Assembly: GCA_903813345.2 (NCBI GenBank)
Contig: CAIIXF020000008.1
Location: forward strand, 34,374,867 to 34,438,866
Source: Owenia fusiformis
Taxonomy: Eukaryota > Annelida > Polychaeta > Sabellida > Oweniidae
Direction: 5' to 3'
Length of the DNA stretch: 64,000 nucleotides
In this document: in pieces, positions 14,616-64,000 of the stretch
Layout of the letters: the number at the start of each line of letters is the position of its first letter
Numbering within the stretch: position 1 is the first letter of the stretch
The notes under the pieces: model-generated
What the model saw: only the letters and a program-made list of their open reading frames with translations
What the model was told of the DNA's origin: nothing
The model's database searches: none
Program-made: the position numbers and the translations under genes

Positions 14616-14689
14616 CTGAAAATATATAAATACAACATTGCCAGTTTTTAAAATGTATACCATTACTATTCACTCTGCTGTGTGCAGTT

Positions 14690-15062
14690 GATGGAGGCGT
14701 TATGTCGCAGGTTCGTGTTCTCTACGACAAGCTTAACACTAATATGATAGACATGTTTTGGTCTGTAGGTGCAGCTGTTAACATGGTGATTGTCATGTTG
14801 TTGTTATATTCTACTTTTAAACAAGCTTCAAGATCTTCTGTAACAGACCATAACTATAACTCAGTTCAGCTGTTTAGGGTGTTGGGATGTATCACTGCAG
14901 CTTTAATAATACCTGGTATTGGTTTTTACTATTGTGTGTATATTGACTACTTGTTTATTATAATAAGGCTAGCAAATGATATTGAGACACAACCAGGGCC
15001 TCTTCTATTTGAAGAATCTACGAAAATCTTATCCCTTAAAGATATGCTATACAGATATGTAG
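14690..15062 (+). CDS. Candidate first exon with hydrophobic segments and 2A-like motif
   Basis: The frame opens at ATG 14702 and encodes about 120 residues to a good donor (TGTAG|GTCAGT, 15062/15063). There are two hydrophobic stretches, about residues 17-37 and 59-90, followed directly by RLANDIETQPGP. That matches the 2A ribosome-skipping consensus D(V/I)ExNPGP except for Gln in place of Asn. A possible acceptor (CTGTGTGCAG) precedes it at about 14,690. The domain downstream is not identifiable. In this family 2A follows a hydrophobic leader in some LINE ORFs and some NLR-like proteins. Losing the Asn probably weakens or abolishes skipping. Confidence 0.45.
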
Positions 15063-15392
15063 GTCAGTATTACATAATCGTGAAATGAATAAGTCTGAAT
15101 ATATCATTGGTCAGAAAACACTAAAATCTGCTTGAAACTGTAAAAGTTTGTACACTCTATTCCACACTGTATAGAAATAAAATAACTTACACCATAAGTA
15201 ACTGTGAGCCAATCATTGCATAGAAAAAACTTTATGCACTGTTTATAAGATTCACTGAGACAAGTGGGTCAATACTTCATGTACTTTATGTGCTCTCACA
15301 CAATTACCTTCCCTTGCATAAAGTTGCTGTACAGTTATATGTAACTGAATATTGTATATTCATCACAAACAACCTTAGCAAAATGATGGTTC

Positions 15393-15499: not shown

Positions 15500-16800
15500 T
15501 GCAAAGGTCAGCTTGTAAACTACTGGGTAACCCTAAATGATGAGAAATATGATTGTACAAAATATGTTTTGCATGATTTATTCATATCCCAATGATTTAA
15601 CTCCTTCACTGCATCTAATAAGGTATATAGATACAAATTACGGGACATTTAGGAATTAAGTGACTAGACCAAAGCAAGCATGTTTGAGATTTTAATGATT
15701 TTAAATAAATTACCACTTCATTATTTGCTTTTAGACATTCAATCAGTTTTATTTGTCCAACAAACCATATTCACAATTGTTCAATCCAACGAAGATTAGG
15801 GGATAAGCTATAGGGACCCCTCCATTTGTCCGTCCATCCATCCTTCAACTAGACAACAGCAACACCAAAGTGTAGCAAATCCCATCGAACAGCCATGGCT
15901 GGCATTTTTACAAACAAAGTATACAGCAAAATTTTTTATCTCCATCGAAAAATACTTCAATTCTTTGAAGCAAATGATTCTAAAAGTACAACATATTTTT
16001 GAAAAAAGATCATTCTGTTAAGTGAAATTGTGAAAAATATTTTGCAATGTGTGAAATTGAATTAAAGAACATGATTCAATGAATAGTGGATGCTTCAATC
16101 CACTTATGTCTTCTAGTCTAGGCTTTGAATTCGGACTACCACCCTCGTTCATAGTCTAGAATCAGGACATATGTTAAATTTAATCATCTACAATACATTG
16201 AGTCATTGGCTTAAATCCTATAATATAATATGCCTATCAATATAATATGTAATTATTTAAGTATCATCTCAATGCTTTTAATTTTAATAGAATTATCTTA
16301 ATATTTTACTAACTGTATTATATGTAGTTTGCATTACTGTTGATAAATAAATAAATGATTGCACTGTTAAGTAAAGAAATAAAGCAATTGTATTATTTAA
16401 ACTGACTATACACTATAGAAATGATTTTCATTGGAAAATCAAATCAGTACCAAAATTATGGTTACCCTGTAGTAGTGAAAGGCACATTAAAAATGAATAT
16501 CACCCCCTTCAATCTATTTTTACAGGTTTTTATGATTATTTCAGATTTTTCTATAGTTTGCGTAACCAGGACGGTGAATTTTCTTCATTTTTCATCAAAC
16601 ATTTTGTCTTACCAATATTTATTATATCTGTCAATTTTATCAAAATCGCGCCGCTACGTTTGAAAATAATTCAAATTATGTAGTTTTTCCCATTGAGCTC
16701 CATTATAAAAATGGAATTTTCAAACCTAATATTTTAAAATTCTACGTGGTGAAAAGTTGCATATTGAGTAGTTAGTTAATGTTATGGTGTTAAAAATTAA
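15500..16800. other. AT-rich non-coding stretch
   Basis: No gene seen. At about 15,795-15,890 is a fragment of the dispersed repeat carrying GTAGCAAATCCCATCGAAC, also found at 32.8, 36.4 and 50.5 kb. The ORF at 16,421-16,663 is hydrophobic, low in complexity and unsupported. Confidence 0.6.
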
Positions 16801-16823
16801 AAACAAAAAGGAATAAAGAAAAA

Positions 16824-17321
16824 ATGCCACAGAGAAGTCTCAATAGAGTCTCTTATGTTGTCTGCATCTGTGAGGCTGGAAAATCAGTCAACATTGATAA
16901 ATATCAGATTAAAGACTTTCATCAGCCAATATATCCAACTATTCCTGAGCATGGAAGGGGTATTATTATTTATATTAAAAGTGATATTGCATACAATTTA
17001 AGACATGACCTCTCAAATCAAAATGAAATTGTATGGGTCGAGTTAGTGATAAACCACAAGCGCATTTTAATAGGTTCATGTTATAATTCTCCTTCATTGG
17101 TATCAAAAGAAGAAATACATCAATTTAACAGTAGATTAAAATCCACTCTGCAAAAGATCAGAGTAGAAGATCGGTATGACATGATTCTCCTAAATGGAGA
17201 TTTTAATGCAAAATGTAAACTTTTTTACGATAAAGATCATGATACCCCTTCCGGTATAGCACTTTTTGACACAATGAGTGATTTTGCATTTAGTGAACTC
17301 ATTCATGAATCCACAGAGTAA
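16824..17321 (+). pseudogene. LINE endonuclease N-terminal part, frameshifted
   Basis: An AP-endonuclease-like fragment. CICEAGKS stands at the usual S-E-T-W catalytic glutamate region and LLNGDFNAK is the conserved GDFN motif. The frame hits a stop at 17,319; the correct frame (SKSCLDLVFTDALG) continues one base out of phase toward the next ORF, so a one-base indel near 17,315 splits the protein. The start is truncated; the first ATG is not the native initiator. Confidence 0.85.
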
Positions 17322-17377
17322 CTTTAACATCCAAGTCTTGTCTCGATTTAGTTTTTACTGATGCCCTGGGTAAGATC

Positions 17378-19864
17378 TTGCATAGTGAGGTTTTACCACC
17401 TATAGGAGGCAGTGACCATTCCGCAGTTTTGACCAATGTAGACATTAGCAAGGCAAACATCAAAAAAGTTAATTCCAAAAAGGTTTGGCAGTATAAAAAT
17501 TGTGACGTGCAGAGGCTTAATCAAAATATTTCTACTCTTGACTGGGATCATGTAATTTACTCTGGGGATATTGACTCTGCAACCCAAAACTTTACTGAAA
17601 AATTACTTAGCATATTTAAGGCTTTCATACCATGTAAAGAAAAGTGGACAAAATCAAATGATATGCCATGGTTTAACTCTGACATAAAAAAGGCAATAAA
17701 CAAGCGCGACAAGTTATATAAAAAATGTAAAACTTCAAATGATAAGAAACACATAGATGAACTTTCGGAGCAGAAAGGTGTAGTTCGAAATTTGATAGAA
17801 AATGCAAAAATGACATATGAAAATGATATATGCAATAGTCTCCAAGTACAGGAAAAAAATGATAAATTTTATTGGCTTACGATAAAACAACTTTTATGCA
17901 CACGATTTGTATCTGAGATACCTGCCCTATTTTCTAACAACTTGATGAATGCTGCCAAGACAGATGAGCAAAAGGCAAATTGTCTTCAATCAATTTTTTT
18001 AGAAAAATTTCACCATGACTTTAATTTTAATCTCAATGACTTACCTGTATTTCCAACTAGATCAAATATCCAAATAAATACATTATTCACTGACAGAGTG
18101 GAGGTTTGCAAATTTTTGAGACAACTTGATATCTCAAAAGCTGAGGGCCCAGATGGCATTACAAACAAAATGTTGAATCTTGTGGCTGACTCAGTTGATG
18201 CCCCAATGTCTAAATTATTTAACCGTATTTTTGAGGAAAACAAATTTCCGAAACCCTGGAAAGATGGGGTTATTATTCCAATATTCAAAAACAAAGGCGC
18301 TAAGACTGATTCATCAAACTATAGACCAATTACTCTGTTAAATACAATGGGTAAACTTTGTGAACGAATACATCAGAAAATGCTTAAACACTTAACAGAA
18401 AACCATTTGCTTTTCAAAAACCAATCTGGATTTCTGCCTGGACATAGTGTAGAATACCAACTTCTTTGCATTACTAATTATATAATGACATCTTTTGAAG
18501 ATAATAAAGATGTAAGATCGCTATTTTTGGATATCGAATCAGCGTTTGACAAAATTCCACATGAACTATTACTTCATAAAATAAAATCATATGGTTTTGG
18601 TGAAAATATTATAAGTCTTTTCTCTTCATACTTAAAGGATCGTAGAGTACGAAAAAAAGTTAACTCAAATTTTTCTGGCTGGTCTGAAATGGGATATATA
18701 AACTCTGGAGTCCCTCAGGGTTCCATTCTTGGACCTATCTTCTTCTTAATGTACATAAATGACCTTCCGGATATTCTTGACTCAACATGTTTCATTTGTG
18801 CAGATGACACTTCAATTTATGCCCAAGTGTCCTACAATGAAAACACTGAACTCTCTCACAATAAGCTCCAATCAGATCTAAATAGAATACAATTATGGTC
18901 AGATAAATGGAAAATGAAATTTAAACCTAGCAAAACAAGGGAGGTAATCTTTAAAAAGCCAAGAGCAAAGTTACGAAACTATCAACCTCTTCTCCTAAAT
19001 AATAATAAAATTCAGAGAGTCAATAGCCACAAACACTTGGGAGTCATACTCGATGAGCATCTTAACTTTGAGGAACATATAAATGGAATTGTTTTAAAAA
19101 CTAGTAAAATGCTCAACCCTCTTCTTTTCCTTAAGTCAAAAATTTCATCTAAACACTTGGAGAAAATGTATACATCATTCATTCTTCCTCATCTTGAGCA
19201 AGGTTCACTTTTTATTGATTCCTCTTCAAGGGTTCATATTGAAAAGCTTAATAGAATCCATTATCGAGCTGCACTTTTAGTTTCGGGTGCTATTAGTGGA
19301 TCTAATTTTGAGAAGGTCTTACAAACCTTAGGATGGAAATCACTACTTGAACGTAGACAGGAAAAGAAAGCAATCTTAATGTTCAAAGTTCATAGAGAAA
19401 TGGTCCCCGCCTATGTGCAGAATATCTACACACCTTTTTTGAACCCAGCTTATAGAACGGGTTTAAGAACTCAGCGTCAATACATTATTCCTGCCTCTTC
19501 ATCAGTAAAATTCAAAAATTCACCTGCAATATCCCCTATTAAAACATGGATATCCATTCCAGAAAAAATCAAAAAGAAAGAAACTAAGTCGCAGTTCAAA
19601 AGATCATATAATCAATCCTTCGAAAATTCAAAATTAATCTCTGTTTTGACAACTCATCTGAATATTAAGAGATCTTTGGAAATAAAACTTAATCGAATGA
19701 GATGTGATCTTTCTTTGCGCTCTGATTTCTTTCGGCACAATTTTGAAAAGTTTAGAGATCCAAGTTGCCCATGCGGATTTCGAAACCAAACAAAGGTACA
19801 CTATTTACTTGATTGCCCTCTAACACATGATGCCCGACAAACTTTTCTCCAAAGTCTCTCCTAA
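17378..19864 (+). CDS. LINE ORF2: endonuclease end, reverse transcriptase, zinc knuckle
   Basis: 828 codons. It begins with the end of the endonuclease (GGSDHSAVL, the catalytic SDH). The RT domain follows at about residues 280-560, with NYRPITLLNTMGKL, motif A FLDIESAFDK, SGVPQGSILGP, and the catalytic FICADDTSIYA. A C-terminal Cys/His motif (CPCG...HYLLDC, about 800-815) is typical of CR1/Jockey-group elements. The RT has no stop and all three catalytic aspartates, so it was active recently. The ATG at 17,378 is only the first Met after the frameshift. Confidence 0.93.
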   Translation: MHSEVLPPIGGSDHSAVLTNVDISKANIKKVNSKKVWQYKNCDVQRLNQNISTLDWDHVIYSGDIDSATQNFTEKLLSIFKAFIPCKEKWTKSNDMPWFNSDIKKAINKRDKLYKKCKTSNDKKHIDELSEQKGVVRNLIENAKMTYENDICNSLQVQEKNDKFYWLTIKQLLCTRFVSEIPALFSNNLMNAAKTDEQKANCLQSIFLEKFHHDFNFNLNDLPVFPTRSNIQINTLFTDRVEVCKFLRQLDISKAEGPDGITNKMLNLVADSVDAPMSKLFNRIFEENKFPKPWKDGVIIPIFKNKGAKTDSSNYRPITLLNTMGKLCERIHQKMLKHLTENHLLFKNQSGFLPGHSVEYQLLCITNYIMTSFEDNKDVRSLFLDIESAFDKIPHELLLHKIKSYGFGENIISLFSSYLKDRRVRKKVNSNFSGWSEMGYINSGVPQGSILGPIFFLMYINDLPDILDSTCFICADDTSIYAQVSYNENTELSHNKLQSDLNRIQLWSDKWKMKFKPSKTREVIFKKPRAKLRNYQPLLLNNNKIQRVNSHKHLGVILDEHLNFEEHINGIVLKTSKMLNPLLFLKSKISSKHLEKMYTSFILPHLEQGSLFIDSSSRVHIEKLNRIHYRAALLVSGAISGSNFEKVLQTLGWKSLLERRQEKKAILMFKVHREMVPAYVQNIYTPFLNPAYRTGLRTQRQYIIPASSSVKFKNSPAISPIKTWISIPEKIKKKETKSQFKRSYNQSFENSKLISVLTTHLNIKRSLEIKLNRMRCDLSLRSDFFRHNFEKFRDPSCPCGFRNQTKVHYLLDCPLTHDARQTFLQSLS

Positions 19865-22680: not shown

Positions 22681-23490
22681 CTGAAATCAGATAAATACAA
22701 CATTAATATAATGGCAAGAACTTCCAACATATCTGGTGGTAAGGTGTATCATGCCCGTAGCCAGGGGGGGTTCGCAGGGTTCGGGCGAACCCCCCCCCCT
22801 GGCCAAAAATTCTTTCAAAATCATGCAGTTTTTGACCATTTTGAGCACTTCTCAAGTGATTTTAGCCTAATTTGGGCCAAAATTGTCAAATGTGAACCCC
22901 CCCTGGAATTTTTTGAAAATTGAACCCCCCTTGGCAAATCCTGGCTACGGGCCTGTGTATAGCATGCACCCCATACTACCACTGATCCATTTCAGGGCTG
23001 AAATCAGATAAATACAACATTAATATAATGGCAAGAACTTCAACATATCTGGAAGTAAGGTGTACAACATGCGCCCCATACTACCACTGATCCATTTCAG
23101 GGCTGAAATGAGATAAATACAACATTAATATAATGGCAAGAATTTCAACATATCTGGTGGTAAGGTGTACAGCATGCGCCCCATACTACCACTGATCCAT
23201 TTCAGGGCTGAAATCAGATAAATACAACATTAAAATAATGGCAAGAACTTCAAGATATCTGGTGGTAAGTGTATAGCATGCGCCCCATACTACCACTGAT
23301 CCATTTCAGGGCTGAAATGAGATAAATACAACATTAATATAATGGCAAGAACTTCAACATATCTGGTGGTAAGGTGTACAACATGCACCCCATACTACCA
23401 CTGATCCATTTCAGGGCTGAAATCAGATAAATACAACATTAATATAATGGCAAGAACTTCGCATATCTGGTGGTAAGGTGTATAGCATGC
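22681..23490 (-). repeat. 105-bp exon-derived array, copy 1 (about 7 units)
   Basis: Each unit contains the PSME4 splice acceptor (GATTTCAG), the exon start CCCTGAAATGGATCAG and the exon sequence to GAAGTTCTTGCC, then 32 bp of intron. One unit is broken by the MITE at 22750-22954. In the minus frame each unit runs into TAA just after the exon part. The array stands upstream of the real exon, so a transcript would meet the repeated acceptors first. Confidence 0.92.
22750..22954. mobile_element. CCCGTAGCC MITE, 205 bp, 6-bp target duplication
   Basis: Inserted in a unit of the exon-derived array. GTGTAT is duplicated at 22744-22749 and 22955-22960 and occurs once in every uninterrupted unit. 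The ends are CATGCCCGTAGCCAGG and TGGCTACGGGCCT. Same family as 8862-9066; the larger element at 7743 uses the same ends and the same 6-bp duplication length. Confidence 0.92.
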
Positions 23491-24835
23491 GCCAAAAATC
23501 AAGACAAATGATGGCATAATCAAGACATTGCATCAATTTATATTCCAGTGAATCATTTAAATTCAGGCACTTCATACCTACTACCTCTCCAAAAGTTTGT
23601 AAACTCCAGCTCCACTTATAGACCACAATCATGTTAAGCCTGCTTATATACATGTATAGCAATTTAAGGAAATCAGCATAGCTGTACGTCTCTTCTTACC
23701 CTTAGTCATTAATCAAGCAAACATTAAATTCAAAGAGTGCAGGCTTCAAAACCAAATCAAATGGGGAATCAGGGTTGTCAATCTTTCAAAGGTGTATCTT
23801 ATCTCAGAAGACTTTAACTTTTTGTCTGCTTGTCTTTCTAAATCTATTTTTCTTCGAAGTAACTCAGTAAATGATTAGTCCCCAACTTCCCCAAAATAAC
23901 ATAAGAATTTTTATGGGATGTAAGCTTTTTAAATATAACATCAAGACTGCCTACTAAATATGGTGGCAAACAGAAGTTTTCTTTTTTCTGTTGTATTTTC
24001 TCTATAACTCATAAGAAAATGTTGTTCACCCAAGTATTATAGATATTGAAATTGCATGAACATTCATCGAGGTTTTGGCTTGCATGACAACCAATTTCTA
24101 TGTGTACATATAACTTATGTGCTCTAAGTCTAAACTTGCAAATAGCCTGTGTATTATTTTCATTTTGGATATTTAAATAAATTTTTCTTTCAAATAATTT
24201 CTAAATTCTACATAAGTTCTCAAAACAGAGTATTTGAGTAGCTTTTGTCTATTGAGTGTTATAATTCTGATATAGTTCTTTAATAATTGTCTTGAAAAAA
24301 TAAAACGTGAAAGGGCAATTTAGCACTATTTATGGCGGAGTAATTCCTGTTGCTTCAAAGGAATATAAAACCTTCATGACCTCCTTATATTGATGTTTGT
24401 CAGGTAAATATAAAAAATTTGAATAGCAAACAAAAAGAATAATTCAGATTGCATTACTTTAACAGGTTGCTAACAAAACACTACACATAAAAAGGAAAGG
24501 AAATAAATCTGATCAGAAGAGATGACATTCTGAATTATATCAAATAATTTGTTGGTAAGACACTGATTTATTTCAACTACAGTGTACTTTTAATAATTAT
24601 CAAGAAATAAAGCTTCATGTATATCTAAATGTAGTTTAAAGCCAAAAAGAGGTCAAAATAATTTCTACTGCATCTTTTTTGAAGTGCTAAAGATATGGTA
24701 CACATGATGACTTATTTTATAGGTTCTATTAATGTTTATGTTTAGAATTATTGGAATTGAATATTTTAGCAATAGTGAATCACATGTGTACAGTTGATTA
24801 GTGGGACATTGTTCCTTTCTTACATTTTTATGACC
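23491..24835. other. Non-coding stretch upstream of copy 1
   Basis: I looked for upstream PSME4 exons on the minus strand and found none, so copy 1 appears to be a 3' partial duplicate. The sequence is AT-rich without recognisable repeats. The ORF at 23,423-23,662 is an array remnant. Confidence 0.6.
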
Positions 24836-37097: not shown

Positions 37098-39019
37098 AGA
37101 ATAGACCATTGGCGAAGTGCTAAAATTCCCCATTGCCATACCATATCTAGTCCTTTAAATATAAGTGTATTTTGCTCCTTTTAGGTCATGGGTGTGACAA
37201 TTGACCAATGGCGGAGTGCTATAGGCAACTTCCAACGACATGACCCTGCCAACTCTAGTTTTTTGTAATAGCTGAGACCCTGACGAACAATCTCCAATTG
37301 CCATATTACGCCTGGTCCTTTAAACATAAGTGTATTTTGTTATTACTTTTAGGTCATAGGTGTGACAATAGACCAGTAGCGGAGTGCTATAGGCAATTTC
37401 CACCCACATAGCCCCATCAACTCCAGTTATGAAATAGCAGAGGCCTCGAGAAATAATCCCCAATTGCCATATCATGCCTGGTCATTTAAAGGGTTCCGAT
37501 TAGCATCCCGTATAAAAACAATATGGGGGCTCCAGGCGAATCAACTGGATCAGTCCATTTTTAAGAAATAAGGGGAGTTCTGTAAAATCCAGTTTATTGA
37601 AATTGTCTTTGAGATAAAGTAATCCGTTTATAATGATTTTGAAAACGTTATCCAAAGAGTGATTGCGTTCAAAGAATACATGTACAACAGCCAATATAAA
37701 TCCTTGTATTAGAAACCGGTTTGTCTTGCTTTGTTTCATTTGTAGGATATTTCATATGCCAAGCTGTGTGCTATTACGTTATGGGGAAATTTAGATGCCA
37801 ATTTTTCCTTATTATACACAAATAGAAGATCCTGAAACTTCACCCATAAATGTGGAATTGATTTGTCAAAATAAAAATCACCCTTTTATAAATGTGTGAC
37901 GATCTATAATATACTTATGCTATATAATAGTTAGAGGTGTTGACACAACGACCTCGAACCTGTGAACCCTTGAGTATTATTCCGGGATCGGGCCTTTTAT
38001 ACTAAACGGTGAGCAACACCAGAAACGAGCGTTCGATTTGCTAAACGATATGCGTCACCCTTTAAACATAAGTGTATTTTGTTACATTTAGGTATGGGTG
38101 TGACAATAGACCAGTGGCGGAGTGCTATAGGCAACTTCCACCAACATGGCCCCGCCAACTCCAGTTATGAAATAGCAGAGGCTTTGAAAAATAATCCCCA
38201 ATTGCCATATCATGCCTGGTCCTTTAAACGTAAGAGTATTTTGTTACTTTTAGGTCATGGGTGTGACAATAAACCAATGGCGGAGTGCTACAGGCAATTT
38301 CCAACCACATAGCCCCATCAACTCCAGTTATGAAATAGCAGAGGCTTTGAAAAATAATCCCCAATTGCCATATCACGCCTGGTCCTTTAAACATAAGAGT
38401 ATTTTGTTACTTTTAGGTCATGGGTGTGACAATAGACCAGTGGCGGAGTGCTATAGGCAACTTCCACCCACATGGCCCCACCAACTCCAGTTATGAAATA
38501 GCAGAAGCCTTGAGAAATAATCCCCAATTGCCTTATCACACCTGGTCCTTTAATCATAAGTGTATTTTGTTACTTTTAGGTCATGAGTGTGACAATAGAC
38601 CAACGGAAGAGTGCTATAGGCAACTTCCACCCACATGGCCCTATCAACTCCAGCTATGAAATAACAGAGGCCTTGAGGAACAATCCCCAATTGCCATATC
38701 ACGCCTGGTCCTTTACACATAAGTGTATTTTGTTACTTTTAGGTCATGAGTGTGACAATAGACCAATGGAGGAGTGCTATAGGCAACTTCCACCCACATG
38801 GCCCTATCAACTCCAGCTATGAAATAGCAGAGGCCTTGAGGAACAATCCCCAATTGTCATATCACGCCTGGTCCTTTACACATAAGTGTATTTTGTTACT
38901 TTTAGGTCATGGGTGTGACAATAGACCAATGGCGGAGTGCTATAGGCAATTTCCACCCACATGGCCCCATCAACTCCAGTTATGAAATAGCAGAGGCCCT
39001 GAGGAACAATCCCCAGTTG
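37098..39019 (+). repeat. 163-bp tandem leader-exon array
   Basis: Eight recognisable units have starts at 37,188, 37,356 (ATA in place of ATG), 38,094, 38,257, 38,420, 38,583, 38,746 and 38,909, plus a truncated unit at 37,098. The last six are spaced exactly 163 bp. Each has an acceptor-like TTTTGTTACTTTTAG, then a frame starting MGVTIDQWRSAIGNF (37 residues, to NNPQL), then 52 bp of linker. As 163 is not a multiple of 3, reading through shifts frame and stops in the next unit. Only the last unit joins the downstream gene. Confidence 0.93.
37490..38061. mobile_element. TTAA-flanked insertion (piggyBac-like MITE)
   Basis: 572 bp between duplicated TTAA (37486-37489 and 38062-38065) in the linker of the 163-bp array. 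The ends are AGGGT and ACCCT, as in piggyBac-type elements, but the inverted match does not extend beyond five bases. The minus ORF inside (37,500-37,739) has no transposase motif. The TTAA site is part of the array linker (CTTTAAACATAAG), so the empty site is seen in the other units. Confidence 0.75.
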
Positions 39020-39236
39020 CTGATTGTGATCACCTTCCTCCTCTTGATGGGGGGTGTTGAGCCCAATCCTGGACCCAGGAATTTTAAAAATGCAATAGCT
39101 AAGGCACTGGGAACCAATCCTCTATTGTTAGGTGCCCTTCCTCTACTGAAAGGAGTGACTAATCCATCTTCAAATGCAATGCCTCTGACAGAAAGACATG
39201 TGGTCAGACTGATAACAGATACTGTATCTAACCCAG
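38909..39236 (+). CDS. Exon 1 of NTase-TPR gene: leader with 2A-like peptide
   Basis: Encodes 109 residues plus one base. The leader MGVTIDQWRSAIGNF is shared with the upstream array units. A hydrophobic stretch LLIVITFLLLM (about 37-47) leads directly to GGVEPNPGP, which fits the 2A consensus (D/G)(V/I)ExNPGP with skipping expected between Gly55 and Pro56. The donor CCCAG|GTAAGAG is strong. A 2A after a short hydrophobic leader has been described as a signal sequence that gives two protein pools in some sea-urchin NLR-type proteins; here it is inferred. The upstream promoter is not identified. Confidence 0.8.
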
Positions 39237-39443
39237 GTAAGAGTTAAAAGGGATACAAGCTAAAAGACTGTAAATGGTGTATGTAACTTATTGATAAAGC
39301 AAAAGCATTATGATTTGTTTTTCTCTGATATATTAACTTTAACATTACTTTATATCTTCCCTGAAACACTTAAAATGGCAGGAAACAGATGACAATCATA
39401 AAATAAACTTGCTATGAACTGGCAATAGCATTTAATTTTGCAG

Positions 39444-42400
39444 AGACTGGTGATGCAATGTATTTGCTAGGTCAGAAAATAACTGCATGTCATCAGAAGA
39501 CAGAGCTCAAAAAGCAAGCTGGGTACATGTATGAATTGGGATTAGCTTATGCCAAACTGGCATGTGAGACATCAGATCATTGGCAGTTCATCTATGCAAC
39601 AGCACTCTTCAATGCAGCACTACAACGCATTGAGAAAAAGCCAAAGGCTGTTGGAGGCATCCTAGGTAAGTGTTTACCTCTAAGTGTTAGAGGCAAACAT
39701 ATACTAACTGTACAATCTATAACTGACCAGTTGCAACGGATAGAGACTGAATTTCTTAAAACAGTATCTAAAGTCAACAATGAATCAACTGCAGACTGTA
39801 CAAAAAGGTACAAGAATCATCTGGATCAAGTAAGGACATATTCTACTGATACCATAAATAAGATTCATAAAAATGACATGCAGGTTGATAGTGATACATC
39901 TGAAATGAGTGATGAATGTGAAGACAGGCTGATAGTAAACAGCAAGAAGTTCTACAATAACCTTACAAGTCAGATAAAAGAGTTTCATGAGTTAGTATTT
40001 GATGAATGTGTTAAAGTACTAGGTGCTCCAATGTGTAGGTTTGTGTTTCTAGGGTTAGGTTCACTGGCTAGAAAGGAGGTAACTGCATGGTCTGATCTTG
40101 AGTCAGCAATCATATATGACCCAACTGGCAAAACACCCTCAGAAATTAATGAGACGAAAAAGTATTTCAGGGTTCTCATGCATTATTTTCACATGAAAAT
40201 CATCAATTTGGGTGAAACTCGTTTAAATGTGCTAGATATCCCTGTGCTCTGTGATTTTAATTCAAAACTCAGTCCAAATTTAAAAGACAATAATTTCTAT
40301 GACACCTTCACTAAACAAGGACTTGCCTTTGATGGCACTCTACCTAAAGCAAGCAAGACACCTCTTGGCAGAAAGTCCACCAGTGTTCCAAATATAAAAT
40401 CTGATGAACTAGAGCTTATAATGACACTTGAAGAAATGGCTAAATGTCAGTCGACAGATATTTCAATTAAAGAAGGGTATCACCTTAGTGATGTGCTCCT
40501 TACATCTACCATTATTAAAGGAGACAAATCTCTTTGGGATATGTACAATGAGAAGGTTCATAATTCAATTGAATCGAAGTCAGTATCTAATCCAAGTATC
40601 TCGATAGGTCAAGAACGCGGATATGTCACATTAAAGGATGACTTAAAAAATTATGACAGCAATCCTTTAACACCTGAGTCGTTTCAAAAACAAATGCGCA
40701 CAAAACACTCCATCTACAGATTTGCCACAATATCTATCAACATTCTCAAACTTATATATCATTGTAAGTCAGTAAGCCCCCTTGACATCTTAGAGGAGTT
40801 GGAACAGAAACAGGTTCTGACTGAGAGAGCCAAGAAGGACTTACAAGTGATGGTTTGCCTAGCCACAAATATGAGACATCTAGTGTACAGCAGATATGAC
40901 CAACAAGAAGAGATGGTATCCTTCCTGGCTCCAAATCCCAGTCAAGGAACAGTTAATTCAGAAGTAGTATCTGTGAGGGATTTCAATGCAATATACAGGT
41001 TCTATGCTACATTATTCCCCTGGTCTGAATTTCTAAAAACACACTCCACAGATCTTGCAAAATGCGCACATCTAGCTAGATATATTAATAACAGTGATAA
41101 TATTAAGGGACAACTCCATGAAGAAATGCTATTCACTGACAATGCACTCAAAGCCTATATACGTGAAGAAGAGAGGCTCCTCTTACTTGAAGGGAAAGAA
41201 AACAAAATCAAAAGCAGCAATATAAAACAAAACATAGGCAATCTTTATGAATTGCAGGGAAGGTATGATCTGTCAATGAAATACTATGAACAAAGCCTCA
41301 CAATGTACAAACAGATGTATGGTAAATCCCCACATTCTGGAATAGCAAAATCACTTTATGGTATAGGTAAAGCGTATACAGGAAGAGGTGCTTATACCAA
41401 TGCAATTAAATACTATGAGCAAAGTTTGACAATGATGAACCAAGTGTATATGAATCAACCAAATCCAATAATAGCAAAAATACTGACTAGTTTTGGAGAT
41501 GCATATTACAGGACAGCCAATTATGACATAGCAATTAGATACCATGAGCAAAGTCTAGATATGTACAAAAAGTTACCCGAGGACAAAGCACATTCTGGGG
41601 AAGCGGATACAATTAAGAACATTGGTATGACACACCATAGTAAAGGTGAATATGACCAGGCTATTCAATACTACAATCAGAGTCTGGACATGTACAGAGA
41701 GACATATGGAGACCAGTCCCATCCTAGAATAGCAAATACACTAAACAACATTGGAATTGCATACAGTGATAAAGGTGAACATGACAAGGCTATTCAATAC
41801 TACAATCAGAGTCTGGACATGTACAGAGAGACATATGGAGACCAGTCCCATCCTAGAATAGCAAATACACTAAACAACATTGGAACTGCATACTGGAGTA
41901 AAGGTGAACATGACCAGGCTATTCAATACTACAATCAGAGTCTGGACATGAAGAGAGAGACATATGGAGACCAGTCCCATCCTAGAATAGCAAATACACT
42001 AAACAACATTGGAACTGCATACAGTGATAAAGGTGAACATGACAAGGTTATTCAATACTACAATCAGAGTCTGGACATGTATAGAGAGATATATGAAGAC
42101 CAGTCACATCCAGACATAGCAATGACACTAAACAACATTGGTAGACCATACAAAGATAAAGGTGAACATGACCAGGCTATTCAATACTACAATCAGAGTC
42201 TGGACATGTACAGAGAGACATATGGAGAACAGTCCCATCCTAGAATAGCAAATACACTAAACAACATTGGAACTGCATACAGTGATAAAGGTGAACATGA
42301 CAAGGCTATTCAACACTACAATCAGAGTCTGGACATGTACAGAGAGACATATGGAGACCAGTCACATCCTAGCATAGAAAATACACTAAACAACATTGGT

Positions 42401-42655
42401 ACTGCATACAGTGATAAAGGTAAACATGACCAGGCTATTCAATACTACAATCAGAGTCTGGACATGAAGAGAGAGACATATGGAGACCAGTCACATCCTA
42501 GCATAGCAAGGACACTAAACAATATTGGTGATGCATACTCATTGAAAGGTGAGAGGACTAAGGCTATGGAATACCATAAACAGAGTAGAGACATGAAGAA
42601 ACAGTTAAACAAAAACAGGATTCATCATACACATCAAACCACCGGAAGTAAATAA
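39444..42655 (+). CDS. Exon 2: nucleotidyltransferase-like domain plus TPRs
   Basis: The acceptor (TTAATTTTGCAG) joins exon 1 in frame (G|AG = Glu), giving a protein of about 1,179 residues. At about 308-330 is GLGSLARKEVTAWSDLESAI, the GS-x(10)-D-x-E signature of the polymerase-beta NTase superfamily (DUF294/GlnD-like); a third acidic residue may be in LDIPVLCDF near 372. Eleven 43-residue TPRs follow from about 700; repeats 4-10 are almost identical (LNNIGTAYSDKGEHDKAIQY). The order NTase, helical linker, TPR is known in marine invertebrate proteins of unclear function. Substrate is unknown. Confidence 0.85.
41650..42540 (+). repeat. 129-bp tandem TPR repeats inside the gene
   Basis: Seven consecutive 129-bp units encode the 43-residue TPR. 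DNA identity between units is very high (shared TACAATCAGAGTCTGGACATG), while the three repeats before them are diverged. This indicates recent unit expansion or gene conversion, so repeat number is likely to vary between alleles. Confidence 0.93.
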
Positions 42656-42968: not shown

Positions 42969-44539
42969 ATGGCTGGCTGCAACTCAGATCATTCTGATGG
43001 CATGGAATCAGATTATGAAGATGTAGATGATATAGCTACGCAAACAGAAAGCCAAACATTTGAACATATTAAACATTTATGCGGAGGAAAATCCCGAGAA
43101 GAATTCAAAATGAAATATCTCGTATTCAATCCTCGGACGATCACCTACGAGATGTAAGATCGAGTCTATTCGCTCTTGCAAAACAACGTAGGCCCAAGGA
43201 TATTCCAAGAGGAACACTCATCAACAGACGTACCTCAGATAAAATATGCGATGATTGCTACATACTATATCACTTCTTGGAAGGTGATTGTAATGTGAGT
43301 GAAACTAAAACAATACTTAGTTGCAAACAATCCATCAGCAGTGCGCCAACACAAACAAGGGCAAATGAAAATGACAATTCACCGTCTGAGACACTACTAA
43401 CCCATATCCTCTCCTTGAAGGATATTGTTAGAGAAAATCAGGTAGAATCCAATGAAAATATATGTAACCTTAAGAAGCAAATACTTGAAATCAGTTCAAA
43501 AAATCAGAATGAAATCATTTCTCTGAAACAAAAAGAGCAGAACCTCCGCGACAATATCGCACAACTTAAGAAGGAGCTGAGACTAGTTAAACAGTCGTCT
43601 AATGAAAAAGATGATACGCTACGAGCTCTAGAGGAAATCATAAAACAGAAAGATATCTTACTGTCCAAAAAGATAGCAAGTATAGAAAACAGCCTAACAT
43701 GCATAACAAAGAACAAGAAATCACCCCCTCCTGCAACTGATCCCAACGAAACACCGAAGCAACAAACCGAAGAAGAACAACAAAACAGGTGTGAACACAA
43801 TCAAAACCATACACATGATAATGGTGACAATAGCAAAACAATGGCACATGAACGACAGCGATATCTTTCTGCGCAATGCTCAACATCAAGACAAAATGAA
43901 CGCGAAAATTTACCAGAAATAAAAAGTACAACCATGGAACTCACAAGACCAAGCAATGGCGCTGCCGTCACACCTGTTACAGAGAACAACAAGCCAGAAC
44001 AACACCATACATTGTCTACGAGTTGCTCTACTAAGCCTAATAAAACTACAAATCAGATGAAAACCACCAAAGAAACCATAAATTCACAAGACCCGGAAGC
44101 AACAACGATCCTTTCACGAATAACCTACAGGTCCAACAAAACAAACCCTAAGACATCCTATGATGAAAGCATTGGAGACTGGCGATCGAAATCATTTCCG
44201 TTGGATGATTATGACGATGGGTTCGAAGGCGCCAAACCAAGACGGAAAGTTAAATGGCTAGTGCTATCAAGAATCAACTCACGTCTCTCGTGGCCTGATC
44301 TCCAAAATAAAATCATTAAATACGCACAACGTAAAAATGTTGAATTAACATTCGTCAGGCACTTAAAATCAGGTGACGTAAGAAATTCATACAGTCTCAA
44401 ATGGTATACTCTTCGCATCAATGTTAACACAAATGACTGTGACTCAGCTTTAAGGAAAGACTTCTGGCCTGAGAATATTATTTGTAGAGAATGGATCAGT
44501 GACCACGAGGAATCTCCACATGCATCAATATGGGAGTAA
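42969..44539 (+). pseudogene. LINE ORF1, coiled coil, frameshifted near the start
   Basis: An acidic N-terminus (MAGCNSDHSDGMESDYEDVD) is in one frame to 43,157 and the rest in another (43,079-44,539), so there is one frameshift near 43,110-43,140. The middle is a coiled coil (LKQKEQNLRDNIAQLKKELR), followed by a polar, low-complexity linker. The C-terminal domain (SRLSWPDLQNKIIKYAQ, FVRHLKSGDVRNSYSLKWY) resembles ORF1p C-terminal domains of CR1/L2-type elements. The stop overlaps the ORF2 start by 10 bp. Confidence 0.8.
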
Positions 44540-46069
44540 AACCAAAGTTATCATTATGTAATATGTTACACGTAGCCTTTTTGGTATTAGTCAGTCATAT
44601 CATATCCTCATACGCGACATCTATTAATATGCATAAGCAAACAAGTGATCTTAGGTTATTCTGCTGGAATTCACAAGGAATAATGTATGGTGCACCATAT
44701 ATATCTCAACACCTGAAGTCAGTCGACATTGCAGTGATCACTGAACACTGGTTACATTCTGGTTCAATTAATTTCTGTAATACACTTGATTTAGATTTTA
44801 CAAGTAATGTAATCACAGATCATCGTCTCAATGTAGATAATCCAAAAAGGCCACGTGGTATAGGGGGAGTTTGTATAATATATAGAAAATCACTACATGC
44901 TAAGCATATTAAATTGAATTTCGAATCTGATAGGATTTGTGGAATTGAAATGACCGTCAATGGATACACTTTTTATTTTCGGTGTATACATGCAATCGAC
45001 CAACAGCTCAATTCACGAATATAAAGAATGTCTCAATCTTTTAGATGATTTATATAATATATATAGCCCAAAGGGCAATATAATTCTGTATGGCGATTTC
45101 AATGCACATTTGTCCAGAGATATCTGCCCTAGAATACAAGGGACCAGTAATTATAGAGGTAAATTGATTGAAACATTCTTAACTGAAAATAATCTATTAT
45201 CGATCAATTGTCAAACATTAGCAACAGGTCCTTGGTTTACGTACTACAACGATGCAGTGCAAACATGTATTGATCACATCTTTATCAAAAATGCAGGTAT
45301 AGATTGTATTAAAAAATGTGTAGTACTAGATGACCATCCACTGAACTTATCTGATCATCATCCCATTTACCTCGTAATGTCGCTTAATCAGTTAACATTG
45401 AAATATATAGCAGACAGCATCCCCAGGCCCAACTGGAACAAAGCCAGTGAACAACATCTACTCTTATATAAGAATTATATCGCAACTCGATTGAACCCCT
45501 GTTTAATTGAATGTGATACTGTTGACGACACAGAACAGCTCACCAATGAACTTACAAATATTCTGAGAAGTGCGTCAAAACTCCATCTACCGAAATCTAA
45601 ATATAAGCCCTTTCTCAAGCCATATTGGAAATCGCACGATCTTAAACCACTGCATGATAACATGAGGCATGCTCGGCAAATATGGATAGCAGCTGGTAAA
45701 CCAAGGGGCAATCAGTTTGCCTCGTATTCCTCATACAAGCATGATAAAATATTATTCTCTAATGCCTTAAGAATCGCCAAATTACATTACGAACGTGAAT
45801 TATACAACGACCTTGAATCCGCTGCAGAAGTTGACATTAATACATTTTACAAAGCAGTGCGCAACACAACAAATGGACCGTCAACCTGCCACGAACTTAA
45901 AATTGGAAGTGAGATTATAAGGGACCCAGATAGAATACGAGATGAATGGGCAAATTATTTTGAAAATCTTGGGAAGCCCAAAAGTTACCCCAATTTTGAT
46001 GACAATTTTAAAGCTAAAATCGAACACGACTTCAAACAGATCATCGGAACGAACAAAAATAGCTTGTAA
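44530..46069 (+). pseudogene. LINE ORF2 endonuclease part, frameshifted
   Basis: APE-type endonuclease. FCWNSQGI, VITEHWL and YGDFNAH supply the Asn, Glu and Asp/Asn positions, and LSDHHPIYL the catalytic His. The frame changes near 44,985 (YTFYF / FGVYMQSTNS), consistent with a one-base deletion. It ends at 46,067 where the RT-core deletion puts it out of phase. The N-terminus has a hydrophobic segment (LHVAFLVLVSHIISSYA). Confidence 0.88.
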
Positions 46070-46246
46070 AAAAGCCAAACAATCATTCCATGCTCTCAAT
46101 AAAATTGGAATGAGAAACGGAGCCATGAATCCGCTAGCCTCGGTCAAAATATGGAAAAGTGTCATAATCCCCTCTGCGCTCTATGGTTCAGAACTATGGG
46201 GAAAATTAACCAAGTCTGAACTAAACAATCTTGAAACAAGGCATTA
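46040..46246 (+). pseudogene. LINE RT thumb fragment after internal deletion
   Basis: The segment KKAKQSFHALNKIGMRNGAM, then VIIPSALYGSELWGKL, is the conserved region after the RT palm. It follows the endonuclease linker directly, so several hundred residues (fingers, palm, catalytic ADD) are deleted. It stops at LETRH, where the GGTCA element is inserted. Confidence 0.8.
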
Positions 46247-46256
46247 ACATGACAAA

Positions 46257-51028: not shown

Positions 51029-51243
51029 GTCACATTTGCTCCGATTCATGAGCCGGCGCCCGGCAGATTGAGTATTTTGTTCAAAATTGAAGGGCAAATC
51101 TCAAATTTGAGATCAGATGTGAACTCCTGAGAACTTGTATATGATTTAAAAAAAGTTTGGTCAATTTGAAGCAAGTTGAAATCAGTTTTGAACAAAATAC
51201 CGCAATCGGCCGGGCGCTGGCGGATGAATCTGAGCAAATGTGA
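51029..51243. mobile_element. 215-bp MITE, 60-bp TIRs, in the UGT fragment
   Basis: Starts GTCACATTTGCTC and ends GAGCAAATGTGAC; the arms share ATTTTGTTCAAAA and run about 60 bp. The loop carries TCAATTTGAAGCAAGTTGAA, also found in the GGTCA elements. It replaces the membrane-anchor end of the UGT reading frame. The target duplication is not clear. Confidence 0.85.
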
Positions 51244-51690
51244 CCAACAAATAATATTGGAAAAAGTTGAGCTCCCGTGTAGGAATTGACCTCAAGTGAT
51301 CCGCACCGTTGTGCTTCATGACGTATTCAGCCCAGTATTTGATAGTTTGTGAAGCACTCATTGGTTGATCTCTGGCCAATGCCTGGGCTTTTAGAACATT
51401 CTGTTTATACACTGGACTCTCAGGAAGGTCATCTAAAGCATCTGAAAGTAGTTCCATATTCACTTCATCAAAGATGACAAGTCGCCCCATTTTGTGACGA
51501 TGGGTGAGGATCCCGCAATGCTGACATTTGTCATAAAACAAAGGGATGCCAATGACAGGGACTCCATTATACACTGTTTCTGCAGATCCAGATGCTCCAC
51601 AATAAGTCATAAACACTCGTAGGTTACCTTGACTTAGACAGGCACTAACGCAGGGAAGAGTTGCTTCAAGGCCAAAGGCTAACAATTCTG
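51238..51690 (-). pseudogene. UDP-glucuronosyltransferase C-terminal fragment
   Basis: Matches the UDP-sugar binding half of family 1 glycosyltransferases: RVFMTYCGASGSAETVYNGV (signature usually FITHxGxxxxxE), then VIGIPLFYDKCQHC and a C-terminal AEYVMKHNGADHLR. Active UGTs transfer glucuronate or another sugar and end with a transmembrane anchor and a dilysine tail; here the frame runs into the MITE and ends about 15 residues later, so the anchor is lost. Tyr replaces the usual His in the signature. N-terminal exons were not found. Probably a relic or 3'-truncated gene. Confidence 0.75.
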
Positions 51691-52755
51691 ATTTGGCAGG
51701 TCAACATTAAGCCTGTCCATGAACACAAGTAACTATAGTAACCAAACTCAAACAAGCAATATCAAAATTGTGTTTTTTTATTTTAAAAACTTTCCGCAGA
51801 TATAGATCTGTGTACAATTCTTTATAATTACATGTAAACACAAACAACTTCCCTTCATTTTAGTAAATTATAAGACTACCCCAGTATGTATACTTTTTTT
51901 ACATAACATAAAAAGCAGTACATAATACTATGAAATAAATGTACATTGTGTACATAATGTACATGTATATAGTAATATATATATAATGCATATATACTAA
52001 TGTATAATGCTACACACCATATTTTAAATTAATAAGATCAAAATCATATAATAATATTTAATCGAGCACTTGGATTTGATTATTTTAATTTACATTTATT
52101 TTATTTTTTTGGGACGGTGATACTTTAGTTTTCTGTTAATGTCAAATAATGTCACTGACCATAGTTAATTCAATAATAACTGTGAAGATTAAACACTGAA
52201 AATATTGAGAGGTAATCCAATACCAAAGGTCACTGAAAATATTAAGATGAATATCATAGTTAACACAATTCATCTACTTCAGAAAAGGCTTTTAAACAGA
52301 TACATGTACCTTGTCTTGTCTCTGTAACAATTTATTTCAAGAATTGTCGACAGTTAAAATACAGGAGACAAGCTGAAGTATGTTACATTTGTGATGAAGC
52401 ACTCTTTTTCATTGTTCATATTTTTTCCCATATAATGGTATTTTCAACAGCAAAAAAACATTGGTGTCTCATATGCCTAATAAACTTTAAGTCCTATTCT
52501 ACACTATTTCACTCTGAAACTCAAATTATTGTATCTTTTTTGTAGCTGACTGCATGGTTGTCCTATAATCATTGCTGATTCAATATTTTTCCAAAAGCCT
52601 TTAAATTGCAATTTATAACACTACAATCATCCCAATGAACCGTGAACAGTACAGGTGTATTTTGGTTTCCTCGAAGAATTTGTCAATATCCTAATATCTA
52701 ACATGATAAGGAGGGTGTAGCATTATGAAAACGTGAGATTAAAACATTGTTCCTT

Positions 52756-61044: not shown

Positions 61045-61250
61045 CTCTTTAATGACATGTAGCACATGTTGAACATGCTCTGTTCTCTGGAGTGTATGGG
61101 CCATTAGATGTAGGGCAGTTTGGCACTCAGCTTTAAGCTCATCATCTGTAGTGTCTTGGACATAGATGCAGATCAATGGCAAGAACTTCAACATATCTGG
61201 TGGTAAGGTGTACAGCATGCGCCCCATACTACCACTGATCCATTTCAGGG
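61045..61250 (-). CDS. PSME4: PSME4 internal exon, copy 2
   Basis: 206 bp; donor GAG|GTACAT, acceptor GATTTCAG. Encodes MGRMLYTLPPDMLKFLP and TTDDELKAECQTALHLM; His replaces Asn of copy 1 (TEHVQ). It stands at the 3' end, in transcript sense, of the large 105-bp array. Confidence 0.93.
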
Positions 61251-64000
61251 CTGAAATCAGATAAATACAACATTAATATAATGGCAAGAACTTCCAACAT
61301 ATCTGGTGGTAAGGTGTATAGCATGCGCCCCATACTACCACTGATCCATTTCAGGGCTGAAATCAGATAAATACAACATTAATATAATGGCACGAACTTC
61401 AACATATCTGGTGGTAAGGTGTATAGCATGCGTCCCATACTACCACTGATCCATTTCAGGGCTGAAATCAGATAAATACAACATTAATATAATGGCTAGA
61501 ACTTCAACATATCTGGTTGCAAGGTGTACAGCATGCGCCCCATACTACCACTGATCCATTTCAGGGCTGAAATCAGATAAATACAACATTAATATAATGG
61601 CTAGAACTTCAACATATCTGGTTGCAAGGTGTACAGCATGCGCCCCATACTACCACTGATCCATTTCAGGGCTGAAATCAGATAAATACAACATTAATAT
61701 AATGGCTAGAACTTCAACATATCTGGTTGCAAGGTGTACAGCATGCGCCCCATACTACCACTGATCCATTTCAGGGCTGAAATCAGATAAATACAACATT
61801 AATATAATGGAAAGAACTTCAACATATCTGGTGGTAAGGTGTATAGCATGCGCCCCATACTACCACTGATCCATTTCAGGGCTGAAATCAGATAAATACA
61901 ACATTAATATAATGGCAAGAACTTCCAACATATCTGGTGGTAAGGTGTATAGCATGCGCCCCATACTACCACTGATCCATTTCAGGGCTGAAATCAGATA
62001 AATACAACATTAATATAATGGAAAGAACTTCAACATATCTGGTGGTAAGGTGTATAGCATGCGCCCCATACTACCACTGATCCATTTCAGGGCTGAAATC
62101 AGATAAATACAACATTAATATAATGGCTAGAACTTCAACATATCTGGTTGCAAGGTGTACAGCATGCGCCCCATACTACCACTGATCCATTTCAGGGCTG
62201 AAATCAGATAAATACAACATTAATATAATGGCTAGAACTTCAACATATCTGGTTGCAAGGTGTACAGCATGCGCCCCATACTACCACTGATCCATTTCAG
62301 GGCTGAAATCAGATAAATACAACATTAATATAATGGAAAGAACTTCAACATATCTGGTGGTAAGGTGTATAGCATGCGCCCCATACTACCACTGATCCAT
62401 TTCAGGGCTGAAATCAGATAAATACAACATTAATATAATGGCAAGAACTTCCAACATATCTGGTGGTAAGGTGTATAGCATGCGCCCCATACTACCACTG
62501 ATCCATTTCAGGGCTGAAATCAGATAAATACAACATTAATATAATGGCACGAACTTCAACATATCTGGTGGTAAGGTGTATAGCATGCGTCCCATACTAC
62601 CACTGATCCATTTCAGGGCTGAAATCAGATAAATATAACATTAATATAATGGCTAGAACTTCAACATATCTGGTTGCAAGGTGTACAGCATGCGCCCCAT
62701 ACTACCACTGATCCATTTCAGGGCTGAAATCAGATAAATACAACATTAATATAATGGAAAGAACTTCAACATATCTGGTGGTAAGGTGTATAGCATGCGC
62801 CCCATACTATCACTGATCCATTTCAGGGCTGAAATCAGATAAATACAACATTAATATAATGGCAAGAACTTCCAACATATCTGGTGGTAAGGTGTATAGC
62901 ATGCGCCCCATACTACCACTGATCCATTTCAGGGCTGAAATCAGATAAATACAACATTAATATAATGGCACGAACTTCAACATATCTGGTGGTAAGGTGT
63001 ATAGCATGCGTCCCATACTACCACTGATCCATTTCAGGGCTGAAATCAGATAAATACAACATTAATATAATGGCTAGAACTTCAACATATCTGGTTGCAA
63101 GGTGTACAGCATGCGCCCCATACTACCACTGATCCATTTCAGGGCTGAAATCAGAGAAATACAACATTAATATAATGGAAAGAACTTCAACATATCTGGT
63201 GGTAAGGTGTATAGCATGCGCCCCATACTACCACTGATCCATTTCAGGGCTGAAATCAGATAAATACAACATTAATATAATGGCTAGAACTTCAACATAT
63301 CTGGTTGCAAGGTGTACAGCATGCGCCCCATACTACCACTGATCCATTTCAGGGCTGAAATCAGATAAATACAACATTAATATAATGGCTAGAACTTCAA
63401 CATATCTGGTTGCAAGGTGTACAGCATGCGCCCCATACTACCACTGATCCATTTCAGGGCTGAAATCAGATAAATACAACATTAATATAATGGCTAGAAC
63501 TTCAACATATCTGGTGGTAAGGTGTATAGCATGCGGCCCATACTACCACTGATCCATTTCAGGGCTGAAATCAGATAAATACAACATTAATTTAATGGCA
63601 AGAACTTCAACATATCTGGGGGTAAGGTGTACAGCATGCGGCCCATACTACCACTGATCCATTTCAGGGCTGAAATCAGATAAATACAACATTAATATAA
63701 TGGCAAGAACTTCAACATATCTGGTGGAAAGGTGTACAGCATGCGGCCCATACTACCACTGATCCATTTCAGGGCTGAAATCAGATAAATACAACATTAA
63801 TATAATGGCAAGAACTTCAACATATCTGGTGGTAAGGTGTACAGCATGCGGCCCATACTACCACTGATCCATTTCAGGGCTGAAATCAGATAAATACAAC
63901 ATTAATATAATGGCAAGAACTTCAACATATCTGGTGGTAAGGTGTATAGCATGCGCCCCATACTACCACTGATTCATTTCAGGGCTGAAATCAGATAAAT
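61251..64000 (-). repeat. 105-bp exon-derived array, copy 2 (about 26 units)
   Basis: Units are 73 bp of PSME4 exon start plus 32 bp of its upstream intron with the acceptor. Variants recur in patterned order: GGCAAGAACTTCC, GGCACGAACTTC with GCGTCCC, GGCTAGAACTTC with GGTTGCAAGG, and GGAAAGAACTTC. Blocks of these variants recur, giving a higher-order repeat. At about 63,530-63,850 units carry GCGGCCC. The array passes the window end, so its total length is unknown. Confidence 0.95.

Follow-up and report, generated by a model that had tools for sequence, protein, structure and literature searches.

A probable detachable StopGo/2A leader on many members of a nucleotidyltransferase-TPR gene family in Owenia fusiformis

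Introduction

Ribosome-skipping StopGo (2A) motifs are said to be very rare in cellular coding sequences (PMC12846837). The published StopGo core is (D/G/C/N)(V/I)ExNPGP, skipping at GxExNPGP is described for duck hepatitis A virus (PMC12846837; PMC6249498), and L-rich upstream motifs are part of the viral StopGo itself (PMC12846837). Among sea urchin NLRs, 85 of 241 have an N-terminal 2A-like sequence (Roulston 2016, PMC4981915). Here we describe a gene of the annelid Owenia fusiformis that is predicted to place a StopGo/2A leader in front of a nucleotidyltransferase (NTase) and tetratricopeptide repeats (TPRs), together with the large paralogous family to which it belongs. The gene lies in a window, by which we mean the whole stretch of DNA analysed, of 64,000 nt (C8:34374867-34438866) in an assembly of 498 Mb and 525 contigs, most of which is contained in twelve contigs (C1-C12, 32-62 Mb each). 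For its downstream part, described systems are the AMPylases with the motif G-X11-[DE]-X-[DE] (PMC8097203), including DrrA with the motif residues G98-D110-D112 (PMC7815794), and the NEX2 family of Neochlamydia, 50 proteins with C-terminal TPRs and mostly with an F-box and DUF294 (PMC4209131).

The family resembles the sea urchin NLRs in having an N-terminal 2A, here by predicted gene structure, in a large cellular repeat-protein family. An earlier, sequence-only reading of the window had drawn this parallel, and the published data support it (PMC4981915). The downstream domains are NTase and TPR here, whereas they are NACHT and LRR in the sea urchin; the annelid leader has a conserved box, an exon of its own and a core with mostly G at p12, and its signal-sequence character is not family-wide by hydropathy. 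With viral StopGo/2A sequences the family shares the (G/D)(V/I)ExNPGP core, the free position p15 and the L-rich upstream stretch, and the window gene resembles motif 5 of PMC12846837 in being L-rich upstream and in having G at both p11 and p12 and P at p15. The viral motifs are located inside a polyprotein, whereas those described here are N-terminal in intron-bearing chromosomal genes.

Results

A detachable StopGo/2A leader probably heads many members of the NTase-TPR family. At the level of the genome sequence, a leader exon is followed closely by a GT in phase 1, the NTase exon has an acceptor to match, leaders and NTase exons are linked on the same strand, and core residues are kept while their codons drift.

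The window gene was confirmed as real and as a member of this family. Its two predicted exons, on the forward strand like all parts of the gene given below, fuse in frame in phase 1 into a protein of 1,179 residues without internal stop, in the order leader, L-rich stretch, GVEPNPGP, DUF294 NTase and TPRs, and the sequence supports the joining over one intron proposed earlier. The leader exon (38906..39236; 5' limit set after TTTTAG, by sequence alone) has its start codon at 38909, which opens the conserved box MGVTIDQWRSAIGNF (38909-38953). It continues with the L-rich stretch NNPQLLIVITFLLL (39005..39046), likely a StopGo upstream element by comparison with the L-rich upstream motifs of PMC12846837, and with the 2A core GVEPNPGP (39053..39076), in which the skip would be expected between Gly (39071-39073) and Pro (39074-39076). 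The predicted phase-1 intron (39237..39443) has CAG/GTAAGA at the donor and TTTTGCAG/AG at the acceptor, with similar sites in the paralogues. The second exon (39444..42655) encodes, by translation and Pfam, an N part, the NTase, a further conserved part, the TPRs and the stop. In the window copy the donor is found 160 bases past the core, as compared to 25 or 10 in its four nearest paralogues, and the extra coding piece between core and donor (39077-39236) is peculiar to the window copy in this comparison.

Pfam placed the NTase called from the letters alone in DUF294 (PF03445) on the exon-2 protein of the window gene (E=1.3e-7, 32.0 bits against a gathering cut-off of 21), with the match at 39962..40213 (residues 186-269 of P0001). 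About eleven TPR units were located at 41219..42600 (outer limits approximate) from Pfam and a 129-base DNA repeat at 41641-42528; the models TPR_10 and TPR_7 each marked 11 stretches, in agreement with the number given in the sequence-only reading. No NACHT or LRR was present among the 25 best of 40 Pfam families for the window protein, a list that is led by TPRs and includes DUF294.

The whole assembly was then covered with two queries. An NTase query of 600 residues gave 75 rows, or 72 places after subtraction of 3 second pieces. Of these, 64 reached at least 400 bits, with frames of 507 to 4,014 codons; the other 8 were set aside, two of them being used as outgroup. A family of pseudogenes was considered and is unlikely, because in 62 of the 64 NTase exons the matched region is free of stops. 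Searching with the leader returned 81 rows; 22 that did not reach the 2A were dropped, and the remaining 59 leaders comprised 56 of gene type and 3 that are LINE-like (L054, L055, L057; LINE, long interspersed nuclear element). The 2A-bearing leader is a family trait, a stronger statement than the earlier single-gene claim. On the same strand, a leader was located upstream of an NTase exon within 5 kb for 33 of the 59 leaders, within 10 kb for 40, within 30 kb for 47 and within 60 kb for 52, and pairs on opposite strands numbered 0 at each of these distances.

In consensus, the leader exon has the box MGx(S/T)xxQWRxxIGxF; a variable linker leads to an L-rich stretch, and the core that follows is mostly G(V/I)ExNPGP. 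The box (M/L)Gx(S/T)xx(Q/H)(W/Y)R opens 54/59 leaders, with L012 and L014 nearly so, and the box-headed leaders measure 54 to 215 residues up to the end of the core, the linker length varying widely. At position -3 relative to the ATG, all 53 measured leaders have a purine (45 A, 8 G). The best-scoring GT behind the core, by a simple match count, was in phase 1 in every row; its distance from the core was 7-25 bases in all gene-type leaders (55 of 56) except the window copy. Of 53 NTase exons, 43 have a YAG at the homologous codon; among the ten others, L061-L064 show an acceptor no more than one codon away when the DNA of close paralogues is aligned. The MG start raised the possibility of N-myristoylation, which was rejected because in many leaders position 6 does not, by eye, conform to the consensus.

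In the core, GVExNPGP (29 leaders) and GIExNPGP (18) predominated, followed by GVQ (6), DVE (2, LINE-like) and the single copies GIExDPGP, GLE, GVH and DIH (LINE-like); NPGP was kept in 58/59. The window core GVEPNPGP fits the published one, and (D/G)(V/I)ExNPGP is found in 49/59 leaders. A DNA pattern for G(V/I/M)ExNPGP had 53 places in the 498 Mb as compared to 1 for the reversed pattern, which exceeds chance, and a D-core pattern had 95 as compared to 0 for its control. The 53 G-core places divided into 47 gene-type leaders, 3 that were assigned by eye to LINE-like frames (L130-L132) and 3 belonging to two C11 leaders (L133, L134), behind which TPR exons were present and an NTase match was not found. 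In L134 (1828-2298, reverse strand, C11 at 27.98 Mb) the boxed leader has its 2A core doubled in tandem (GIEKNPGPRVIETD twice), with TPR exons behind.

Selection was examined by counting the fewest changes on an NTase tree for 43 leader-gene pairs at most 15 kb apart, the leader columns not being part of the tree. Positions p12, p17, p18 and p19 had 0 residue changes and 14, 14, 11 and 8 codon changes (47 in total), and p14 and p16 each combined a single residue change with 9 codon changes. Seven changes among three residues occurred at p13, and 18 among 13 residues at p15, which is free in the published motif. Upstream of the core, p8 was always L and p7 changed once, while p6, p5, p2 and p0 changed 9-14 times, charged residues included. 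Residues that are frozen while their codons drift form the pattern expected from selection for StopGo/2A activity. On the NTase tree, built with a 'quick' method, a group of 53 comprised 42 members whose leader was at most 15 kb away, 7 whose leader was 15-60 kb away and 4 without a leader, and a group of 5 had 2, 1 and 2, respectively; a group of four (L115-L117, L119) and a pair (L121, L123) were all leaderless. The leader label needed 11 changes on this tree, as compared to a mean of 18.6 after shuffling.

Within the NTase, the motif G-S-x10-D-x-E (GSLARKEVTAWSDLE, 40058..40102) is conserved among the paralogues, with G218, S219, E224, T226, S229 and D230 invariant in 63/63 and E232 present in 98% of 63. 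G218...D230-x-E232 conforms to the DrrA/GS-ATase motif G-X11-[DE]-X-[DE], and its spacing equals that of the DrrA residues (PMC7815794). Two candidates for a third carboxylate were chosen by spacing and conservation. E270 (40214-40216) fits the DrrA D112-D150 distance of 38 and is kept in 98% of 64, with Q in the outgroup L129; D283 (40253-40255) fits the GS-ATase D703-D753 distance of 50 within one and is kept in 97% of 64 and in both outgroups. A profile of 20 paralogues searched against the PDB had DrrA/SidM as its best match (3nku, E=8.4e-6, about 70 positions), together with 6yx5 (3.1e-5). At E<=1, Pfam found DUF294 in 20/20 of these paralogues and SidM_N in 16/20 (best 1.2e-6). An NCBIfam scan gave no match. 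The likeness to SidM/DrrA and GS-ATase thus consists of the shared motif (PMC8097203, PMC7815794) and the SidM_N matches; the differences are that only about 70 positions align, that the window protein by itself has no SidM_N match, and that TPRs take the place of the other DrrA parts.

A profile that included basal copies retrieved a single contig from the genome collection, assigned to an uncultured Chlamydiae bacterium (E=2e-19, computed over the candidates only). A first scan had given no bacterial relatives, and viral contigs gave no match; scans of this kind need exact short-pattern matches. The follow-up search covered one phylum, Chlamydiae, with 151 sampled genomes, which leaves room for other bacteria and amoebae. 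A match at E<=0.001 was found in 16 of the 151 genomes (best 2.1e-40 over 350 query residues), and four genomes had at least 9-11 matching rows, in one of which a single gene accounts for two rows. Five of 11 chlamydial frames were scanned with Pfam (E<=1e-5): DUF294 occurred with TPRs in three, of which two also had an F-box; of the others, one had LRRs only and one SidM_N only. The window NTase aligned with one chlamydial frame over 505 columns (29%, E=5e-44). In a tree of 18/66 animal rows and 10/11 chlamydial frames, from which the shortest match (L173) was omitted, the animal copies fell on one side (87/96, below the starred level); the tree is unrooted and has several long branches. NEX2 is similar in having DUF294 followed by C-terminal TPRs in an expanded family, and the chlamydial frames found here only resemble NEX2 (PMC4209131). 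Most NEX2 members have an N-terminal F-box, whereas the window gene has a 2A leader, and its leader, its N part and the region after the NTase gave no F-box at E<=1.

Discussion

In the mechanism that we propose, the leader exon would be spliced to the NTase exon, and the ribosome would release the leader peptide (about 53-214 residues in the leader set) and resume with Pro. Most of the NTase-TPR protein would thus be leader-free and start with Pro. The NTase would then move a nucleotide, most likely AMP (adenosine monophosphate), onto a protein held by the TPRs, and the many diverging copies would fit a role against intracellular microbes, as in other expanded repeat-protein families. Many paralogues keep the 2A, and a gain from N-terminal skipping is therefore testable across canonical, variant and missing cores. 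The core E is substituted in a subgroup of leaders (L030, L037, L039, L045, L047 and L048 with GVQ, L051 with GVH), and such GVQ/GVH leaders provide a natural test of weakened skipping.

Several observations weigh against this mechanism or limit it. Ten of the 59 leaders are off the published core (6 GVQ, 1 GVH, 1 GLE, 1 GIExDPGP and the LINE-like DIH). Four of the 56 gene-type leaders (L029, L034, L039, L045) have no NTase exon within 60 kb, and behind three of these no match to the window protein was found in the stretches fetched, two of which hold 500 N. Conversely, 12 of the 64 NTase exons have no detected leader within 60 kb. Six of them form the two fully leaderless tree groups (L115-L117 with L119, and L121 with L123), L080 and L118 are near contig ends, L086 has stops, and the others are L091, L098 and L102. 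Same-strand pairs in the reverse order numbered 1 within 5 kb and 3 within 10 kb and climbed to 13 (30 kb) and 17 (60 kb) because the genes cluster, and the selection analysis was therefore limited to pairs within 15 kb. The G at +4 of the ATG in 53/53 leaders is no evidence for the start, as it follows from the Gly codon behind Met. The fork that joins the first three groups of the NTase tree is not resolved, so a single origin of the leader lacks support. The window protein is among the four paralogues with no SidM_N match at E<=1, and a single-sequence structure model of 39443-41176 had a mean pLDDT (predicted local distance difference test) of 35.6. AMP as the nucleotide is an analogy with related enzymes, and what suggests the immune role is copy number.

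The leader could also have a function of its own. The sequence-only reading had envisaged two pools, a leader-attached, targeted one and a cytosolic one, and dual targeting as in the sea urchin NLRs would take the unskipped leader as a signal sequence to the secretory pathway while skipped protein stays cytosolic. We consider this unlikely. The layout of an N-terminal 2A on an expanded repeat-protein family is the same (PMC4981915), and 21 of the 56 gene-type leaders pass a hydropathy proxy (19-residue mean, threshold 1.6), but 35 of the 56 fail it. The 14-residue L-rich stretch is free of charges in 24 leaders, has one in 18 and two or more in 14, so that 32 of the 56 have at least one, and it begins 30-191 residues from Met in the 53 measured leaders, more than 70 in 10 of them. 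With these charges and this variable distance the term 'signal sequence' fits poorly family-wide, and since an L-rich motif is itself an upstream element of viral StopGo (PMC12846837) the stretch is read as a StopGo element first. The targeted pool is weakened accordingly, although a targeting role of the stretch may hold in some members. A second alternative, which we regard as doubtful, casts the boxed leader peptide as a functional product in its own right, made 1:1 with the NTase-TPR protein and parted from it by the 2A. It draws on the box in 54/59 leaders, kept despite the widely varying linker; against it, no Pfam family reached its cut-off in 20 leaders (best E 0.036), and the box could act in translation instead. 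It is very improbable that the 2A has no present function and was left behind by a LINE-type element located upstream of the genes. A low-copy LINE-like element, represented by three full leaders that are nearly identical and by one partial leader, does have the same box and 2A on the first of its open reading frames (ORF1; L054, L055, L124; LINE by eye, with endonuclease- and reverse-transcriptase-like frames), and its leader retrieves gene leaders with E down to 2.1e-4. Among 15 sampled D-core 2As, 13 are in LINE-like frames by eye; also by eye, 12 of the 15 come before an endonuclease-like frame and one before a PHD-like finger, and two are ambiguous. A relic fits poorly with zero residue changes against 47 codon changes at p12, p17, p18 and p19 and with a phase-1 donor whose position is kept. 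In 2013 Odon reportedly described LINE open reading frames with a 2A, and one LINE-like ORF1 here is alike in having the gene-leader box and 2A; the gene leaders differ in their G core and the donor behind it, whereas the sampled D-core 2As mostly precede the endonuclease-like frame (by eye).

For the enzyme, the sequence-only reading had favored an innate sensor that makes a nucleotide signal. Animals employ NTase-fold sensors, and the NTase motif with its carboxylates is kept, so the protein might produce a second messenger like cGAS, OAS and the bacterial CD-NTases, with the TPRs sensing a ligand. We find this rather improbable. The families that Pfam listed for the NTase part include no OAS, Mab21 or CD-NTase family, and PADLOC gave only CorA-like (7.4e-4) and PDC-S09 (0.0071). 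The relatives that were found, DUF294, SidM/DrrA and proteins of Chlamydiae, weaken the claim of a nucleotide signal and point to protein nucleotidylation, the product being putative.

The preferred reading, a 2A leader that is skipped from a protein-nucleotidylating NTase-TPR protein, can be extended to its origin. Tentatively, it is possible that an animal lineage acquired chlamydial NTase-TPR effectors, or shares them by transfer, without the F-box; that these gained a 2A leader exon which is also on a LINE-like element; and that they expanded to more than 50 protein-nucleotidylating, possibly anti-microbial proteins, most of them freed by ribosome skipping. Should the leader function as its sequence suggests, selection would have maintained ribosome skipping throughout an entire family of cellular genes; about forty genes in one genome appear to keep the StopGo motif, its peptide frozen despite many synonymous changes. 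In a literature search that had a 2025 survey of eukaryotic 2As outside its scope no description of a 2A-NTase-TPR protein was found among the best 10-25 titles, and priority is uncertain. In the literature searched, 2A leaders, AMPylase-type NTases and chlamydial effector-like TPR proteins were not found together.

Other features of the window

Upstream of the window gene, the sequence-only reading had described a tandem array of leader exons. Tandem copies are indeed present, and seven of them (37185..38859, forward strand) are partial duplicates of the 5' part of the leader exon. They start at 37185, 37353, 38091, 38254, 38417, 38580 and 38743, each after an acceptor-like TTTAG, and each corresponds to the first approximately 115 bases of the leader exon, with neither the L-rich stretch nor the 2A. 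A tandem DNA repeat with a unit of 163 bases was found at 38059-39020. Two of the partial copies have in-frame stops, in one the box lacks its W, and no donor site was evident by eye in the seven. The copy at 38906 is the sole full leader exon of the array.

Retroelement-like sequence is found on both sides of the gene. On the forward strand, 14630-15088 and 16794-19864 contain endonuclease-like and reverse transcriptase frames (RVT_1 E=1.1e-29), upstream of which is DIETQPGP, a 2A-like core with Q for N, and a retroelement-like stretch with endonuclease matches (43073-46250, forward strand) is located directly behind the NTase-TPR gene. A UDP-glucuronosyltransferase fragment was identified at 51182-51700 on the reverse strand (E=5.3e-26). 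A similar-looking tandem unit of 105 bases is present at 22955-23493 and 61175-64000, in about 5 and about 27 copies, respectively.

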